From IMG/VR virus record IMGVR_UViG_3300042486_000812, positions 1 to 38,047 of that record: a stretch of DNA of 38,047 bases, one strand, 5' to 3'. Under the pieces are notes generated by a model, which saw nothing but the letters and a program-made list of their open reading frames with translations, had not been told where the DNA came from and did no database searches. Shown here piece after piece: positions 676-38,047 of this stretch (its first letter is position 1; each line of letters opens with the position of its first letter). Origin of the DNA: a virus. Made by a program: the position numbers and the translations under genes.

Positions 676-1716
676 TCAAAGCTCCCACCATTTCGCCGCA
701 TCGCGGCGTGAAACAAGGTTTGCATATGTCTCGTAAAGCAGGCGCGCCGATGTCCCCATGAGGAACGCCGTCTTAGTCGCATCCTTGAAATGCGCGAGGT
801 GGTAGCTTGCGAATGAATGGCGCAGGCAGTTGTCAGGCCACTTCAGCGTCATCACGCCAGAAGGCGACGCGCTCGGCTTCACCCCAATCACTCGGCAAGC
901 TTCGCGGATCACCGGCTTCCACTTTTTTACCGAATACCCATCCACCAGCGCCTTGTCTGCGTCTCGGCGTGGCATGTGGCGCTTGAGCGGCTCATAAATG
1001 TTTGCACTGCGAGGCCTTGCCGCCTCGCCCTGCTTGGCGTCCTCGTGGCGAATCACGATCTCGTCATATTCCCAATCAATCGCCGAGGCAGGAATCGAAA
1101 AAATTTCTCGCGTGCGAAGGCCTGCAAAGGCACCAGCCACAAGCCACGCCTTGAACCAATCAGGCCACTCGTGATCTAGGAGCGCCCGCATCTGGTCAAC
1201 CGTGAGGATCGGCAAGCGTGCGCCTTTATCCTTCTTCGGTGGAGCGTCGGCAAAAGGACTATCCCGCACAATTTTCTTCATGGCAGGTGACGAGAAAAAA
1301 TCTCGGCACACGGCAAAGACATTGAACCTCCCGCGAGTCGTGAGCGGCAACTTGCCCACCCATCGCCGCATCTCCTCTGCATCGAGGTCTTCCGGTTTCT
1401 TCTTCCCATGCGCCTCTGAGAGTTTCAGCAACCCCCATTTTAGCTGGCGCAGCGTGACCGGCTCCACCTCCACCGACTTCTTGGCGAGGAACGCAGCGAT
1501 ATAATGCGCCGTCGTCTCCCCTGCCTCTGCCTTTGATGGAATAGCACCCGTATGCGCCAAAGAAAAAACAAGCTCCGCATGAGCCTTGTTCGCGTCCGAT
1601 TGATCCTGAAAAAACATCCGCCTCCGCTTCCCGTTATTCATCGCCTTAGGGACATCAATCACCCACCGCGCCAGCTTGCGGTCGAACCGAGGAATCAGCG
1701 TTTTGAGATGAGCCAT
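676..1716 (-). CDS. int: Tyrosine recombinase integrase
   Basis: 346 aa, the usual size for a phage tyrosine integrase. The N-terminal part (about 60-150) fits a SAM-like core-binding domain and the C-terminal half is catalytic. Visible active-site residues are R201 in AGLRTREIF, R299 and H300 in LRHSFASYH, and Y331 in LLYETYA as the nucleophile. The first His of the usual HxxR box is Asn here (N296), and the later LGH box reads MGTS; both variations occur in related phage integrases. The ATG (1714-1716) lies inside a perfect 8-bp inverted repeat, suggesting autoregulation or excisionase control. The attP core with a tRNA 3' end is about 120 bp upstream. The enzyme should integrate the phage at the 3' end of a host tRNA gene. 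Confidence 0.95.
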   Translation of the reverse strand: MAHLKTLIPRFDRKLARWVIDVPKAMNNGKRRRMFFQDQSDANKAHAELVFSLAHTGAIPSKAEAGETTAHYIAAFLAKKSVEVEPVTLRQLKWGLLKLSEAHGKKKPEDLDAEEMRRWVGKLPLTTRGRFNVFAVCRDFFSSPAMKKIVRDSPFADAPPKKDKGARLPILTVDQMRALLDHEWPDWFKAWLVAGAFAGLRTREIFSIPASAIDWEYDEIVIRHEDAKQGEAARPRSANIYEPLKRHMPRRDADKALVDGYSVKKWKPVIREACRVIGVKPSASPSGVMTLKWPDNCLRHSFASYHLAHFKDATKTAFLMGTSARLLYETYANLVSRRDAAKWWEL

Positions 1717-27546: not shown

Positions 27547-28020
27547 TCAGTCTCTAGCCAAATTCCGCGCGTTTCCTGGCACCCGCTCCCGTCCCCCCTC
27601 GGAAGAACCTACTACCCCCCCGGCTGGTGGCTGGTCGTAGGCTTTGAGTGGGTAGCGATATTCGTCTGGCTTGCGGGCGCATAGGTTGCGCACCCATTTG
27701 ACGGTGAGGCCGTAAGCGACTGCCACTTGCGCGTGTGTCTTCCCTTCAGCCACGGCAGCGCGTATGCGTTGCTGGCGTTCAAATACGGCGATGTGGTGGC
27801 ATGTTGCCAGCGGTAAGAGCATCCCGCAGAACTCCCTTTGCATGAGCTTTGCTTTCTCTTCTCCGATTGTGCGCACGAGATAGCTGTCCGGGGCCAGCTT
27901 TCCCTTTGGCACATACAGGCAGCGATAGAGGCAGGACATGGCAAGGGCCAGCGTGGCATCGCGTCCGATGACATCGGCAACGACCTGCGCCGTGGGTGGT
28001 AAAGGGATTTCAGAGTTCAT
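27547..28020 (-). CDS. Mor-family transcription activator
   Basis: 157 aa from the ATG at 28018-28020, with a good ribosome-binding site (GGGGAGG). The N-terminal dimerisation part VVADVIGRDATLALAMSCLY, CLYVPKGK and LVRTIGEEKAKLMQREFCG follows Mu Mor. The C-terminal helix-turn-helix is RQQRIRAAVAEGKTHAQVAV plus TVKWVRNLCAR. Mor activates the middle promoter in Mu. Here it is the last gene of the early block and next to the sigma-like gene, so it probably turns on later transcription. The C-terminus has an extra 30-residue Gly/Pro-rich tail. Confidence 0.8.
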   Translation of the reverse strand: MNSEIPLPPTAQVVADVIGRDATLALAMSCLYRCLYVPKGKLAPDSYLVRTIGEEKAKLMQREFCGMLLPLATCHHIAVFERQQRIRAAVAEGKTHAQVAVAYGLTVKWVRNLCARKPDEYRYPLKAYDQPPAGGVVGSSEGGRERVPGNARNLARD

Positions 28021-28207
28021 GTGCCTCCCCTTTGTCCTGGCGTTGCTCATCGAGGTCTATGGCTTCCATCATTTCCCTCCCGATTTCTGCGATCGAGCCG
28101 CGATGGTTGGGTTTGGCTTGAGCCATGAGCGTTGCCCATAGCACGACATAACCACGGGCTGCGTGGTGTGCTGTTCCGTCTTTGTATTTAAGCGAGGAGA
28201 TTTTCAA
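28010..28207 (-). CDS. Small early protein, unknown
   Basis: 65 aa with a TTG start (28205-28207) inside the 3' end of the sigma gene (20-base overlap), or an inner ATG 27 codons later (MAQAKPNHRG). It reads HHAARGYVVLWATLMAQAKP then HRGSIAEIGREMMEAIDLDE. Helical, unknown. Its stop overlaps the start of the Mor-like gene, so it is part of the coupled operon. Confidence 0.6.
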   Translation of the reverse strand: MKISSLKYKDGTAHHAARGYVVLWATLMAQAKPNHRGSIAEIGREMMEAIDLDEQRQDKGEAHEL

Positions 28208-28721
28208 GGTTTAGGCTTTTCTTGAGTGTGTTAAGTGCGTTTCGGCGAAGGGTTCGGGTTTGGCTGAGAGTGAGGCCTTTTTGTTCCGCGATAGTTTTGA
28301 GAGGCAGGTTTTTGAAAAAACTGAGGCTGATGATCTCCTTTTGAATTTCCGGCAGTTGCTCGATGTGCTGCCGGACTTCGCGCCGGTCTTCCTTTAATGA
28401 CGGCACGGGAGAGCCTTCCGAGTCGTTATTTTTTTCAAACAAGGCGACTCGACGCCTGCGAGTGCGCAGCAGGTCGAAGGCAGCTCGGCGAGCGATCCCG
28501 ATAACCCACGGCATGACGGGCGACCCGGCGCGGAATGTTCCGGCCTTCTGCCATACCTTCAGCATGGCGGTCTGGTAAATGTCGCCGGCATCGTCTGCCG
28601 GGACGATGGACGCGATGATGCGGGTGACTTCTGGCTGGGTGAGGGCGAAAAGGTCGGCCATCGCGTCTTGGTCGCCGGTGGCGATGCGTTGAAGGCAGGA
28701 TGTCATTACGTCCTCGCTCAT
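28188..28721 (-). CDS. Phage-encoded sigma-70/ECF-type factor
   Basis: 177 aa from the ATG (28719-28721) overlapping the previous stop. Region 2 is clear: MADLFALTQPEVTRIIASIV, DAGDIYQTAMLKVWQKAGTF and SPVMPWVIGIARRAAFDLLR. Region 4 (about 122-172) has IEQLPEIQKEIISLSFFKNL, then LKTIAEQKGLTLSQTRTLRR NALNTLK. That is the helix-turn-helix that reads -35 elements. No region 1 or 3 is present, so it is an ECF-like, two-domain factor. No anti-sigma gene is seen. As the penultimate regulator of the early operon it may redirect host RNA polymerase to phage promoters. Confidence 0.88.
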   Translation of the reverse strand: MSEDVMTSCLQRIATGDQDAMADLFALTQPEVTRIIASIVPADDAGDIYQTAMLKVWQKAGTFRAGSPVMPWVIGIARRAAFDLLRTRRRRVALFEKNNDSEGSPVPSLKEDRREVRQHIEQLPEIQKEIISLSFFKNLPLKTIAEQKGLTLSQTRTLRRNALNTLKKSLNLENLLA

Positions 28722-29065
28722 TTTTTCAGCTCCTTCCACCGCTCGATTTCCGCGATAACCTGCTGCGTTTCTTCGTCGTGCGCCGCATTCTTGGAGTGCG
28801 GCGTGCTCGCCAATAGGGATGTTAGGTGTTTAAACGCCATATCCGCTAAGGCATTGGCAACGGCTCTCGCCTCGTCTCGTTCGCGTCTCAGCGTTTCCAA
28901 GGCATCCCACATTTCTGTAATTCGGGCGCGATGGTCGGCAATCGTGCTACGAGCAGCGCAAAGTGTGAGTCCTATTGGTTTTGATTTTCGGAGCGAGTCG
29001 TCAATCCATTCATCCAGATTCTCAAGAAGACGTGCAATTCTATCTGTCTCAGGCGTGTCGCTCAT
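28718..29065 (-). CDS. MSDTPETD-type coiled-coil protein (short paralogue)
   Basis: 115 aa from the ATG at 29063-29065. It begins SDTPETDRIARLLENLDEWI and has a charged coil with LETLRRERDEARAVANAL. It shares the N-terminal SDTPETD motif and RERDEAR coil with the gene at 29277-29813. Similar short proteins are frequent in phages and prophages of environmental bacteria, where their function is unknown. It is coupled to both neighbours by ATGA. Confidence 0.72.
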   Translation of the reverse strand: MSDTPETDRIARLLENLDEWIDDSLRKSKPIGLTLCAARSTIADHRARITEMWDALETLRRERDEARAVANALADMAFKHLTSLLASTPHSKNAAHDEETQQVIAEIERWKELKK

Positions 29066-30821: not shown

Positions 30822-31466
30822 TCAGTAACTCCATTGTGATTTTTGAGCGGGGATTGCCGGGCTGGATTTTTTGAGCCAACCGAAAAAGCCCCGTTGGTTT
30901 GCTGCCGTTCCCTTGCTGGCGCAGTAACGCTGAAAGGTTTTCAGTTCGCCATCGACATCGCGGTCAGGGAAATTCCGCCGCATGTTCTCCAACCATTCCG
31001 CGTTTTCCGTTTCAAGGTCGCCGACTGGCTCCTCGCGCGTTGGTAGGTCTGTAGTAATATCTTCTCTTCTCTTCTCTACTCTGGTCACACTTTTGTCACG
31101 GTCTGAGCGTGACATTTTCGTGACTCTTTCCTTAGCCTTCCGCATTGAGGCAAGCCCTCTTTCCTTAGCACTTTGCGAGCAATGCCTATCAAAGTTCGGG
31201 AAGATGATTTTCGAGTTTTTTAGCTCAAGCCAGCCCGCCTCTTGCATGCTCTCTGCAAATCTTTCGTTCCCTGCAATTTTGTTCAAATGCGCGAGTGCCG
31301 CGATATGTGTCACGCCGTCAGCGTGACAATTTCGTGACGCCCAGCCCCATATTTTGAGTAGCCTTCCCACTACCGTATCGGGGTCCATTCCTGTGGCCGT
31401 TGCTATCTGAAAAACCTCGGGCTTTTCGTGTAGGTGCAACTCTACTTTGATCCATTCACCGGCCAT
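30822..31466 (-). CDS. Replication initiator-like protein
   Basis: 214 aa from the ATG (31464-31466) one base after the SSB-like stop. The N-terminal 110 residues resemble a DnaT/phage replisome-organiser winged helix: EWIKVELHLHEKPEVFQIAT, DTVVGRLLKIWGWASRN, and ESMQEAGWLELKNSKIIF. A basic linker follows, and a C-terminal region (about 150-214) with NMRRNFPDRDVDGELKTFQR YCASKG matches helicase-loader interaction tails. It should recognise the origin and recruit the DnaC-like loader. A shorter paralogue lies at 36922-37308. Confidence 0.72.
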   Translation of the reverse strand: MAGEWIKVELHLHEKPEVFQIATATGMDPDTVVGRLLKIWGWASRNCHADGVTHIAALAHLNKIAGNERFAESMQEAGWLELKNSKIIFPNFDRHCSQSAKERGLASMRKAKERVTKMSRSDRDKSVTRVEKRREDITTDLPTREEPVGDLETENAEWLENMRRNFPDRDVDGELKTFQRYCASKGTAANQRGFFGWLKKSSPAIPAQKSQWSY

Positions 31467-31467
31467 A

Positions 31468-31776
31468 TTAAAAAGGAATCTCCTCCCCCGTGTCATCATG
31501 CGTCCGGCCTTGGTATCGGTCAGCCGGTCCCTGCGGTTTCCCTGCTGGCACACTGGCTTTTTTGAGATACTTCCAATTGCCGATGATCGGGCCGCGCTCG
31601 CCATTGTCCCGCCGCTCCTTGGAAATCTCCTGCGTTACAAATCCATCGTTGCCAAACTGGTCAGGCCCGCCCTTGTTGGCAAAGCACACGAGCCCGACAT
31701 ATTTCCCGTTCTTCCCGACATAGATTTCGCCCTTCTCGATCTTGGTGACATTGATGCTGGCTTTAATTTTAATCAT
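31468..31776 (-). CDS. SSB-like protein with acidic C-terminal tail
   Basis: 102 aa from ATG 31774-31776. The N-terminal half (IKIKASINVTKIEKGEIYVG, KNGKYVGLVCFANKGGPDQF) and the following FVTQEISKERRDNGERGPII fit an OB-fold-like, short phage DNA-binding family. The C-terminus is DDTGEEIPF, a close match in form to the DDDIPF tip of bacterial SSB, which binds replication and repair partners. It lies between RusA/recombination genes and the initiator, as expected for a phage SSB. No canonical SSB family call was possible by eye. Confidence 0.65.
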   Translation of the reverse strand: MIKIKASINVTKIEKGEIYVGKNGKYVGLVCFANKGGPDQFGNDGFVTQEISKERRDNGERGPIIGNWKYLKKASVPAGKPQGPADRYQGRTHDDTGEEIPF

Positions 31777-36618: not shown

Positions 36619-36755
36619 AATTTGGTTGGTGTGACGTGGGTGGCTTGAAGCCGGTGCTTCAGAAAAAACTTGATGCGGGCATCCCCGAACCCGCAGGCGC
36701 GGATCGTGTCGGTGATGTCGCCCGACTGGCAGAGGTAGAGGCGGGGGGATTTCAT
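36615..36755 (-). CDS. Tiny basic protein
   Basis: 46 aa, starting inside the helix-turn-helix gene's stop (ATGA at 36752-36755) and ending with the overlap to the next gene. It reads SPRLYLCQSGDITDTIRACG then DARIKFFLKHRLQATHVTPT. Coupled on both sides, but no function is known. Confidence 0.52.
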   Translation of the reverse strand: MKSPRLYLCQSGDITDTIRACGFGDARIKFFLKHRLQATHVTPTKL

Positions 36756-36925
36756 TCTTGGACCCCCTTCTCAACGGCTTCGTCGAGTTCTGAGACTTTC
36801 AGCAGGATCGAGCCGCCGAGTTTGTAAAACTTCACGATCCCCTCGCCTTTCAGCGCATAGAGGGTGGTAACTGAGATCGAGAGATATTCGGCCGCTTCCT
36901 TGGGCTTGAGGTATCCGGGGTTCAT
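36752..36925 (-). CDS. Excisionase/MerR-type helix-turn-helix protein
   Basis: 57 aa. Clear HTH_17/excisionase pattern: YLKPKEAAEYLSISVTTLYA LKGEG then VKFYKLGGSILLKVSELDEA. It overlaps both neighbours by ATGA. It may act as excisionase (binding the TTGACA repeats beside int) or as an early regulator. Its distance from int (about 36 kb in the window, under 3 kb on the circle) fits either role. Confidence 0.82.
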   Translation of the reverse strand: MNPGYLKPKEAAEYLSISVTTLYALKGEGIVKFYKLGGSILLKVSELDEAVEKGVQE

Positions 36926-37308
36926 TTCGATGCCTCCTCTTTTTCCAGTTCCGCGATGAGCGCTTTCATCATCCGGTGCGCGGATGTTCGCTTGGCAGAT
37001 AGGCTGCGTGTCTTCGCCTCCTTGCCGTTGTGTTTTTCAAAATTTACCAGGCTCGACTTGCCATTGCGGCGAGTCATCCAGCCCACCTTCACCAGCGCCT
37101 CGGCAAATCCGGTGCAGGCCGTCAGGCGGTCCAAGAATGCCTCCGCGCTTTCAGGTGCCGCGCCTTTTACCGAATGGGCGTCAAACCACACCCACACCCG
37201 CATCAACTTTCCGAGCACTGCATCGGTGTCGATTTTGAGATGGCTGGCGATTTCCATCACCTCGGGTTTGTCGGGAGTGCCAGACTCCAATTTTATCCAG
37301 CTACTCAT
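36922..37308 (-). CDS. Initiator N-domain paralogue (small, no C-terminal part)
   Basis: 128 aa from the ATG (37306-37308) overlapping the RHH stop; the frame is open further upstream, but that part is the RHH gene. It mirrors the N-terminal 110 residues of the initiator at 30822-31466. Both have SSWIKLESGTPDKPEVMEIA/EWIKVELHLHEKPEVFQIA, then IDTDAVLGKLMRVWVWF/MDPDTVVGRLLKIWGW, a FAEALVKVGW/FAESMQEAGW pair and a FEKH/FDRH. The C-terminal helicase-loader-interacting region is absent. It may compete with or regulate the full initiator. Confidence 0.7.
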   Translation of the reverse strand: MSSWIKLESGTPDKPEVMEIASHLKIDTDAVLGKLMRVWVWFDAHSVKGAAPESAEAFLDRLTACTGFAEALVKVGWMTRRNGKSSLVNFEKHNGKEAKTRSLSAKRTSAHRMMKALIAELEKEEASK

Positions 37309-37475
37309 TTCGAGGCCCTCCGCTTGCTCTCTTTTTGCCGATCCATTTTTTCTTTCACGGCTTGAGCGATGATCCGGGAAACCGGCATCCGGCCTTCCGC
37401 TGCGGCTGTCTGCTTCAGCCAATCCAGCATGTCGCTTGGCATACTGACGCTTGTTTTTACGAATGCGTTTTGCAT
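37305..37475 (-). CDS. Ribbon-helix-helix regulator, first gene of the early operon
   Basis: 56 aa from ATG 37473-37475. It has a single beta strand (AFVKTSVSMPSDMLDWLKQT) and two helices (ISRIIAQAVKEKMDRQK), as in Arc/CopG-type proteins. It is the first gene of the leftward early operon and overlaps the following gene by ATGA. With the divergent RHH gene at 37635 it forms the apparent lysis-lysogeny or early control node. Confidence 0.8.
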   Translation of the reverse strand: MQNAFVKTSVSMPSDMLDWLKQTAAAEGRMPVSRIIAQAVKEKMDRQKESKRRASK

Positions 37476-37634
37476 GGCGCATTTCTTACTACCAAGTCGT
37501 AAGCGGTAGCAATAATTTATTAGTAGATCACCCCATATCGAAGCGTAACTTTTCTGTTGACATCCGCATGAACACTAAGTTTGCGGACGAAAATTTATTT
37601 TTGATTTAGTAGTAATTCATGCTACTATTCAAAT
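37476..37634. promoter_or_regulatory. Divergent early control region with TAGTAG/CTAC half-sites
   Basis: 159 bases between two divergent RHH genes. Half-sites are CTACC (37489-37493) facing GGTAG (37505-37509), TAGTAG (37521-37526), and TAGTAG (37607-37612) facing CTACTA (37622-37627). A TTGACA hexamer lies at 37557-37562. For the plus gene TTGATT (37601-37606) and TACTAT (37623-37628), spaced 16, would give a transcript beginning near the ATG at 37635 (leaderless). These look like RHH operators overlapping promoters. Confidence 0.55.
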
Positions 37635-37901
37635 ATGAAATCAGATTCCTTGTGCAAAAAAGTCAGTGTTTCCTTGCCTGCAAAACTCCACGAATGGCTT
37701 ATTCAAGAATCTCAAAAAGAGAGCGAAAATAGAGGGTCAAGATTGACCGTTTCCGCACTGATTCAGGAAATCATTAATGATTGGAAAAAGGGAAAAGCAG
37801 CCTCCCCAGAGCCTGTTGGTGTAAAGACCTTGAAGCTGTCCGCGAATTTAGACACTGGGTCCTCGAAAGCTGGGACGGACCGCTCCCGGAAGACTGGATA
37901 G
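37635..37901 (+). CDS. Ribbon-helix-helix repressor candidate (divergent)
   Basis: 88 aa. The first 55 residues have the RHH pattern: SLCKKVSVSLPAKLHEWLIQ, SRLTVSALIQEIINDWKKGK. The tail (about 56-88) is Ser/Lys-rich and of low complexity (KLSANLDTGSSKAGTDRSRK). A different frame in the same 3' region encodes a much more protein-like stretch, so the native gene may be frameshifted here. Divergent to the early operon, it is the best candidate for a lysogenic repressor, as no CI-type protein is found. Coding DNA is A+T-richer than average. Confidence 0.75.
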   Translation: MKSDSLCKKVSVSLPAKLHEWLIQESQKESENRGSRLTVSALIQEIINDWKKGKAASPEPVGVKTLKLSANLDTGSSKAGTDRSRKTG

Positions 37902-37951
37902 CCGAGGTGATCGACCTCACCACCCACGCAGAATGCCGGGGGGGGTGGGGG
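37781..37951 (+). other. Overlapping reading frame with protein-like C-terminus, ending at the G tract
   Basis: In the other frame from a TTG at 37781, the sequence gives KDLEAVREFRHWVLESWDGP then LPEDWIAEVIDLTTHAECRG. Its Trp, Glu, Asp and Pro content resembles genuine protein, unlike the Ser/Lys tail of the RHH frame. It ends in the G tract: with 8+8 G (right end copy) the frame stops at the TAA just after it, while with 8+10 G (left copy) it continues into NLLPFIALPLLFCA. Either a frameshifted 3' end of the RHH gene or a separate small gene. Confidence 0.45.
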
Positions 37952-38047
37952 GGGTAACTTGTTGCCTTTTATCGCCTTACCACTGCTTTTCTGCGCGTAG
38001 CCTTAAACAGCCCACCAAGCCCGCCAATCTGCACGCAGACCTGCATG
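37928..38047. repeat. Terminal direct repeat, right copy
   Basis: Same as 1-122 except for two fewer G in the second G run (8 instead of 10). The remaining bases match exactly through CTGCATG, which then continues in the left copy as AATGCAGG. It marks the overlap used to close the circle. Confidence 0.93.

Follow-up and report, generated by a model that had tools for sequence, protein, structure and literature searches.

Two divergent genes for proteins that fit the RHH (MetJ/Arc/CopG) class, by sequence or by fold, lie near the right end of the window, by which we mean the whole stretch of DNA analysed (virus record IMGVR_UViG_3300042486_000812, 38,047 bases). A first-pass annotation had described two such genes diverging across a 159-base gap, and both reading frames were recovered as reported. 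The minus-strand gene (37305..37475) encodes a regulator of 56 residues and is the first of a leftward early operon. An ATGA overlap joins it to a replication-initiation-like gene (36922..37308, minus strand; phrog_2509, E 7e-44), next to which lies the gene for a small HTH_17 DNA-binding protein, excisionase/AlpA-like (36752..36925, minus strand; Pfam HTH_17, E 2e-10). In many relatives, a gene of the latter type likewise comes after that for the minus RHH protein. A second stretch of the window, 30822-31604, matches the N-terminal part of the replication-initiation family phrog_2509, as does 36922-37308. The minus protein itself matches the Arc-like repressors of PHROG (E 6e-5); its match to Pfam RHH_1, with an E of 0.002, is below the cut-off.

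The plus-strand gene begins with a head of 54 residues (37635..37796), assigned to the RHH class by model, profile and structure comparisons. The plus protein gave no significant HMM match in Pfam or PHROG, and a Foldseek search with its RHH model returned nothing at E 0.001. The AlphaFold2 model is RHH-like (pLDDT 84), with helices at residues 16-33 and 39-54, and over 42 residues it superposes on CopG (Z 5.9, 1.5 A). Comparison of the profile of the plus family with that of the minus family gave 98% in hhalign; the best PDB sequence match was MetJ, a weak one (E 0.028). In its own frame the gene extends to a TAG at 37899-37901, for a product of 88 residues (37635..37901, plus strand). The gene may be leaderless, as the first-pass annotation had suggested. 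An SD-like motif was found at 3 of 56 plus-gene starts, counted among representatives after those with unclear starts had been removed by hand, versus 7 of 32 long genes of the window.

The ends of the window have about 121 bases in common, with a difference of 2 G inside a poly-G run. This is consistent with a circular genome, and the earlier description of the DNA as a circle agrees with it. Most of the called genes read leftward. Apart from a small ORF (211-657), the next gene on the circle after the RHH pair encodes a tyrosine integrase (676..1716, minus strand; phrog_1, E 1e-14), whose sole match among isolated phages was in Akkermansia phage Chambord. Upstream of it, the stretch 1847-1876 resembles, by our own reading, the 3' terminus of a minus-strand tRNA gene and is a candidate attP; ARAGORN detected no whole tRNA. 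To the right of the plus gene, approximately at 38004-38041 on the minus strand, lies what appears to be the C-terminal end (ADWRAWWAV) of an integrase of another type. An integrase of this type is whole in loci L002, L004, L006 and L009, and the remnant looks like a scar from an integrase swap. On the best reading, the phage is temperate and its host group is the Verrucomicrobiota (Verrucomicrobia). Besides the HTH_17 gene, the other DNA-binding genes among the ORFs scanned encode a sigma-70-like factor of the phage's own (28188-28739) and a Mor-like late activator (27547-28050). Of the domains that mark the repressors of a CI/Cro-type switch, HTH_3 and the S24 peptidase of CI (Peptidase_S24), neither produced a match in the window, and positive controls worked. 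This agrees with the earlier remark that a CI-like repressor is missing.

Database searches identified 12 viral loci with the plus protein and 13 with the minus protein, many contigs being common to both. Aligning these relatives (L011 excluded) revealed little conservation in the C-terminal part of the plus ORF when read in the RHH frame, and a conserved peptide encoded in the -1 frame. The first-pass annotation had correctly reported the 88-residue frame ending at 37901 but had missed this second frame, which continues to 37957. A search with the tail peptide gave the best 80 of 83 confirmed viral loci; a wider alignment added a few more tail contigs. Once merged, the collection, which counts the window itself, comprised 97 loci and, at a 92% identity cut, 64 representatives. 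One weak match (L170, E 1.2e-4) was removed before counting, and L011 (a head without tail) and L025 and L026 (distant minus RHH proteins) are not among the 97. Two cut-off loci stay in the 97; one of them, a representative of the 64, is absent from the set of 63 used below.

The conserved tail of the window spans 37796..37957 (plus strand, -1 frame) and ends with a TAA at 37955-37957. At its left border, 37790..37796 reads G GGA AAA, a slippery heptamer in phase with the RHH frame; a shift there would yield a fused product of 107 residues. GGGAAAN occurs in phase, as G GGA AAN, in 80 of the 97 loci and never in either of the other two phases. Shuffling the frame-0 codons brought the in-phase count from the 53 of 63 observed down to a mean of 1.94 of 63. 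The remaining 17 loci include the two cut-off ones, three with A AAA AAN instead (L010, L012, L089), seven with CAA AAA TCT (L008, L009, L020, L030-L033), four with weaker A runs (L041 and three contigs of the L145 type) and one, L169, that looks damaged. A shift at an earlier A run in the L008-type loci was considered and ruled out, the -1 frame stopping shortly afterwards.

No stop interrupts the tail frame in any of the 63 representatives, and the RHH frame has one in all 63. In 93 of the 97 loci this stop is a TAG placed 52 bases past a conserved F codon, where it falls within the tail codons for W-[IVL]-[AG]. The I, V or L codon at the TAG position is NTA in 60 of 62 cases, as compared to 32 of 375 elsewhere in the tails; in the longer genes of the window, 6-8% of the codons for Ile, Val and Leu are NTA. 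Differences among the 63 representatives distribute over the three codon positions of the tail frame as 18755/12592/24984, the third position being the freest; read in the RHH frame, the same stretch varies most at the middle position. The -1 phase was identical in all 83 rows of an earlier set and again in the 97. The locus combines an in-phase X XXY YYZ site with a conserved -1 frame that mostly lacks a start, the pattern by which a programmed frameshift would be recognized, and the simplest reading of the sequences is that a programmed -1 frameshift appends the tail to the RHH head.

Could the tail be a separate overlapping gene with a start of its own, or a product of reinitiation? Its open frame contains an ATG, GTG or TTG in 20 of the 97 loci (ATG in 8), and the window offers a TTG at 37781. 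The other 77 have no such start, and an independent gene leaves the in-phase heptamer unexplained; an independent tail gene was rejected for the start-less loci, and we consider this whole explanation highly improbable. As to features that might assist a frameshift, a downstream stimulatory RNA structure was not found (mean z 0.04 over 53 loci; +1.39 for the window), and just 2 of 53 loci have an SD-like element ahead of the heptamer. Stimulators are absent from some known sites, for instance that of an IS (PMC4066793, in the part of the paper available). The related heptamer G_GGA_AAG is termed highly shift-prone in the accessible sections of PMC5009743, a statement that concerns E. coli; the site in the window is GGGAAAA, in a Verrucomicrobiota phage.

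The tail measures approximately 45-50 residues and displays a conserved CxC...FR...P..W motif, with CxC or CxxC present in 58 of 63 sequences. Comparisons with PHROGs and PDB sequences gave nothing useful, and the structural model, which is weak (pLDDT 66), suggests one helix plus a P..W loop. A poly-G tract of the form G8-T-G8 (37938-37954) closes the tail frame and differs by 2 G between the window's two copies. Runs of at least 5 G are found at the end of the tail in 20 of the 64 representatives and, since their lengths differ, the tail's extreme end may be variable.

Outside the viral collection, the tail was found on contigs of two MAGs recorded as Chthoniobacter flavus and Terrimicrobiaceae. 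Of 26 Terrimicrobiaceae genomes 4 carry it, as do 3 of 387 genomes drawn from the phylum; the latter comprise two that also figure in the family list plus one weak match. The tail protein matched none of 50,697 phage records, nor did the DNA from 36900 to 38047 match any isolated phage. When genome contigs were searched with the RHH heads, 0 of 60 pattern matches were confirmed. A head of the type found in the window (type A), 75% identical, is carried by a 95-kb contig (L011:4001-4200), where it precedes a terminator-like hairpin and has no tail, heptamer or divergent layout. Perhaps this isolated head acts as a decoy, or provides immunity against these phages.

A divergent RHH gene accompanies the plus tail in 93 of 95 loci, as scored with an RHH profile built in part from these very loci, and in none of 72 control stretches further left. 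The two exceptions, L167 and L169, come from one genome. The plus heads of the representatives fall into 13 clusters, a figure that exceeds the number of truly distinct families because the choice of start splits one family into some of the clusters. In 42 pairs of loci, tails with a DNA identity of at least 90% go with heads that are unrelated or less than 45% identical, although for a few of these the heads are of one family or the starts were called too late. Seven pairs were aligned. In L030/L008 and L071/L068, the left side and the tail agree, and the minus gene, the control region and the plus head between them do not. The same pattern, less clean, was seen with L074/L092 and L083/L091; the differences on the left side were greater in L031/L008 and in the pair formed by the window and L013, and in L044/L061 the match is confined to the tail. 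Together, these comparisons suggest that the divergent pair and its putative operators are exchanged as a specificity unit, like CI/Cro by function. Mosaicism is general among phages, and an exchanged block alone is no proof of immunity.

The exchanged block has its right border at the tail, and an integrase homologue follows within 3.4 kb on the right in 29 of 51 representatives (convergent in 28 of the 29), which raises the possibility that the tail is not expressed at all and represents either the 3' end of a host gene that travels with the integrase or a homologous patch serving recombination. This has very little to recommend it, given the purifying selection in the -1 frame, the fixed stop in the RHH frame and the invariant -1 phase; moreover, the tRNA-like 1847-1876 stretch, on the other side of the integrase, would be a more usual attP. 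The notion of the tail as attP or host-gene end was dropped, as phase, stop position and selection stay constant while integrase types vary. Since the tail is kept while heads are swapped, its role is probably one shared by all types, such as oligomer formation or the binding of a partner from host or phage.

The 159-base control region (37476..37634), which lies between the two starts and belongs to the exchanged block, has a length of 158-159 bases in type-A relatives; the gap is 181 bases in L013. Proposed operator half-sites within it are TTACTACC (37486..37493), beside the minus start and conserved in the type-A alignment; GGTAGCAA (37505..37512), supported by this alignment and by the type motif; and TAGTAG (37521..37526), lost from L007, L010 and L020. 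A proposed operator dyad, TAGTAG-N9-CTACTA (37607..37627), immediately precedes the plus start and is conserved in most type-A relatives. The first-pass annotation had drawn attention to TAGTAG/CTACTA half-sites. They are indeed present and are conserved in relatives, but their number in the window alone is within chance: the three copies of CTACTA in a 165-base stretch did not exceed dinucleotide shuffles (p 0.215). It is the conservation, along with the existence of motifs proper to other types, that backs them as candidate operators.

Such repeats are proper to the well-sampled types. Among them, GTAGYAA is present two to three times per type-A region; it is found in types A and the related A2, plus once each in one C and one E region. 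GGTGCAC, in 4-7 copies, marks type D and is absent from other types, TTGCCAA occurs in type E, GGTGCTAC in type C, and TGTGCAC in 2 of 3 type-G regions. Shuffling tests on 7-mers scored repeats as significant in 5/5 regions of type D, 3/4 of C, 2/3 of E, 2/3 of G and 1/5 of H, and in none of types A, A2, B, F, I, J and K. A scan for sigma-70-like promoters found none. At 37557-37586, the region contains a TTGACA and a CCGCAT...TTGCGG dyad that are common to control regions of several RHH types. Because several types have both, they are not a type-specific operator; they could be a promoter or the site of another regulator. Within plus/minus pairs, residues at the ribbon positions that touch DNA in Arc match in 27 of 45 instances versus 14.5 after shuffling. 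Such a match would be expected if both proteins read one site, or if they stem from one duplicated gene.

We consider it likely, judging from the sequences, that the locus is a divergent-RHH lysis-lysogeny switch that stands in for CI/Cro, with a plus regulator made in two frameshift isoforms. In this respect the first-pass proposal of an RHH pair in place of CI/Cro has gained from the 93 of 95 loci, the block exchange, the type motifs and the ribbon match, but it overlooked the frameshifted tail. We postulate that the two RHH partners recognise one set of repeats, located beside both starts, and that each would repress the other's promoter. Based on position and gene order, the plus protein would act as the CI-like lysogeny repressor, holding off, in the lysogen, the leftward operon of a genome that itself reads mostly leftward; the minus protein, first in the operon with the replication genes, is the proposed Cro-like partner and would act in reverse, favouring lytic growth. 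Directly after the RHH head, at G GGA AAA, some ribosomes would shift back by one base. The short form would consist of the head and 34 unconserved residues, the long form of the head and the CxC/FR/P..W tail, and the ratio between the two would tune the switch. On balance, we also lean towards a division of labour in which the swappable heads of such a repressor determine immunity specificity and the common tail, reached through the -1 frameshift only, performs an effector function.

RHH proteins are frequent autoregulators of plasmid copy-number and antitoxin operons. The pair might control the early operon or excision only, after the fashion of such autoregulators, with immunity residing elsewhere or being absent, a view to which the excisionase-like HTH_17 gene within the same operon lends some colour. 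We hold this to be unlikely: block exchange between phages with matching flanks and type-specific motifs are traits of immunity regions, and HTH_3 and S24 domains are absent from the window. If the switch reading is true, programmed frameshifting enters the core of phage immunity, where the ratio of isoforms could tune the decision. The locus would also supply a candidate for the lysogeny switch of Verrucomicrobiota phages, together with a natural collection of RHH specificities and their candidate operators. Gene callers overlook the tail because a start codon is mostly absent; therefore, similar extensions may go unnoticed elsewhere.

The closest parallel for the pair itself is the secondary immunity region of P22, immI (mnt-arc-ant), which likewise employs two RHH repressors, Mnt and Arc (PMC8022706, PMC10516654, in the sections available). 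In P22, however, the target of Mnt and Arc is an antirepressor, next to a separate region of CI type, whereas the pair in the window heads the early operon and HTH_3 is absent; no antirepressor match was found among the window ORFs scanned. Furthermore, immI is without a frameshifted tail and the plus gene of the window has a predicted one. With lambda CI/Cro, the locus shares divergent regulators, common motifs beside both starts and block exchange between phages; the proteins differ, being HTH_3 plus S24 peptidase in lambda and RHH in the window. The accessible part of PMC5009743 mentions a possible -1 frameshift early in lambda cI, which it describes as experimentally uninvestigated. The excision activator FseA of Mesorhizobium ICEs is, like the predicted long form, a mobile-element regulator fused from two frames by programmed frameshifting, but the shift is +1, the domains are DUF6499/DUF2285, and neither RHH nor an immunity region is involved (PMC10359603, as far as the available text goes). 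RHH repressors in the P22 immunity region and a frameshift-fused mobile-element regulator are thus already known from these partial sources; in the portion of the literature covered, we found no RHH protein or phage repressor extended by frameshifting.

Programmed frameshifting is known chiefly from tail-chaperone and transposase genes. Lambda G/GT and IS elements likewise undergo a -1 shift at X XXY YYZ, and IS1 and IS3 make a DNA-binding short form along with a fused long form. There, the extension belongs to a tail chaperone or a transposase; in the window and its relatives, it would be a tail of about 45-50 residues appended to many unrelated RHH heads.
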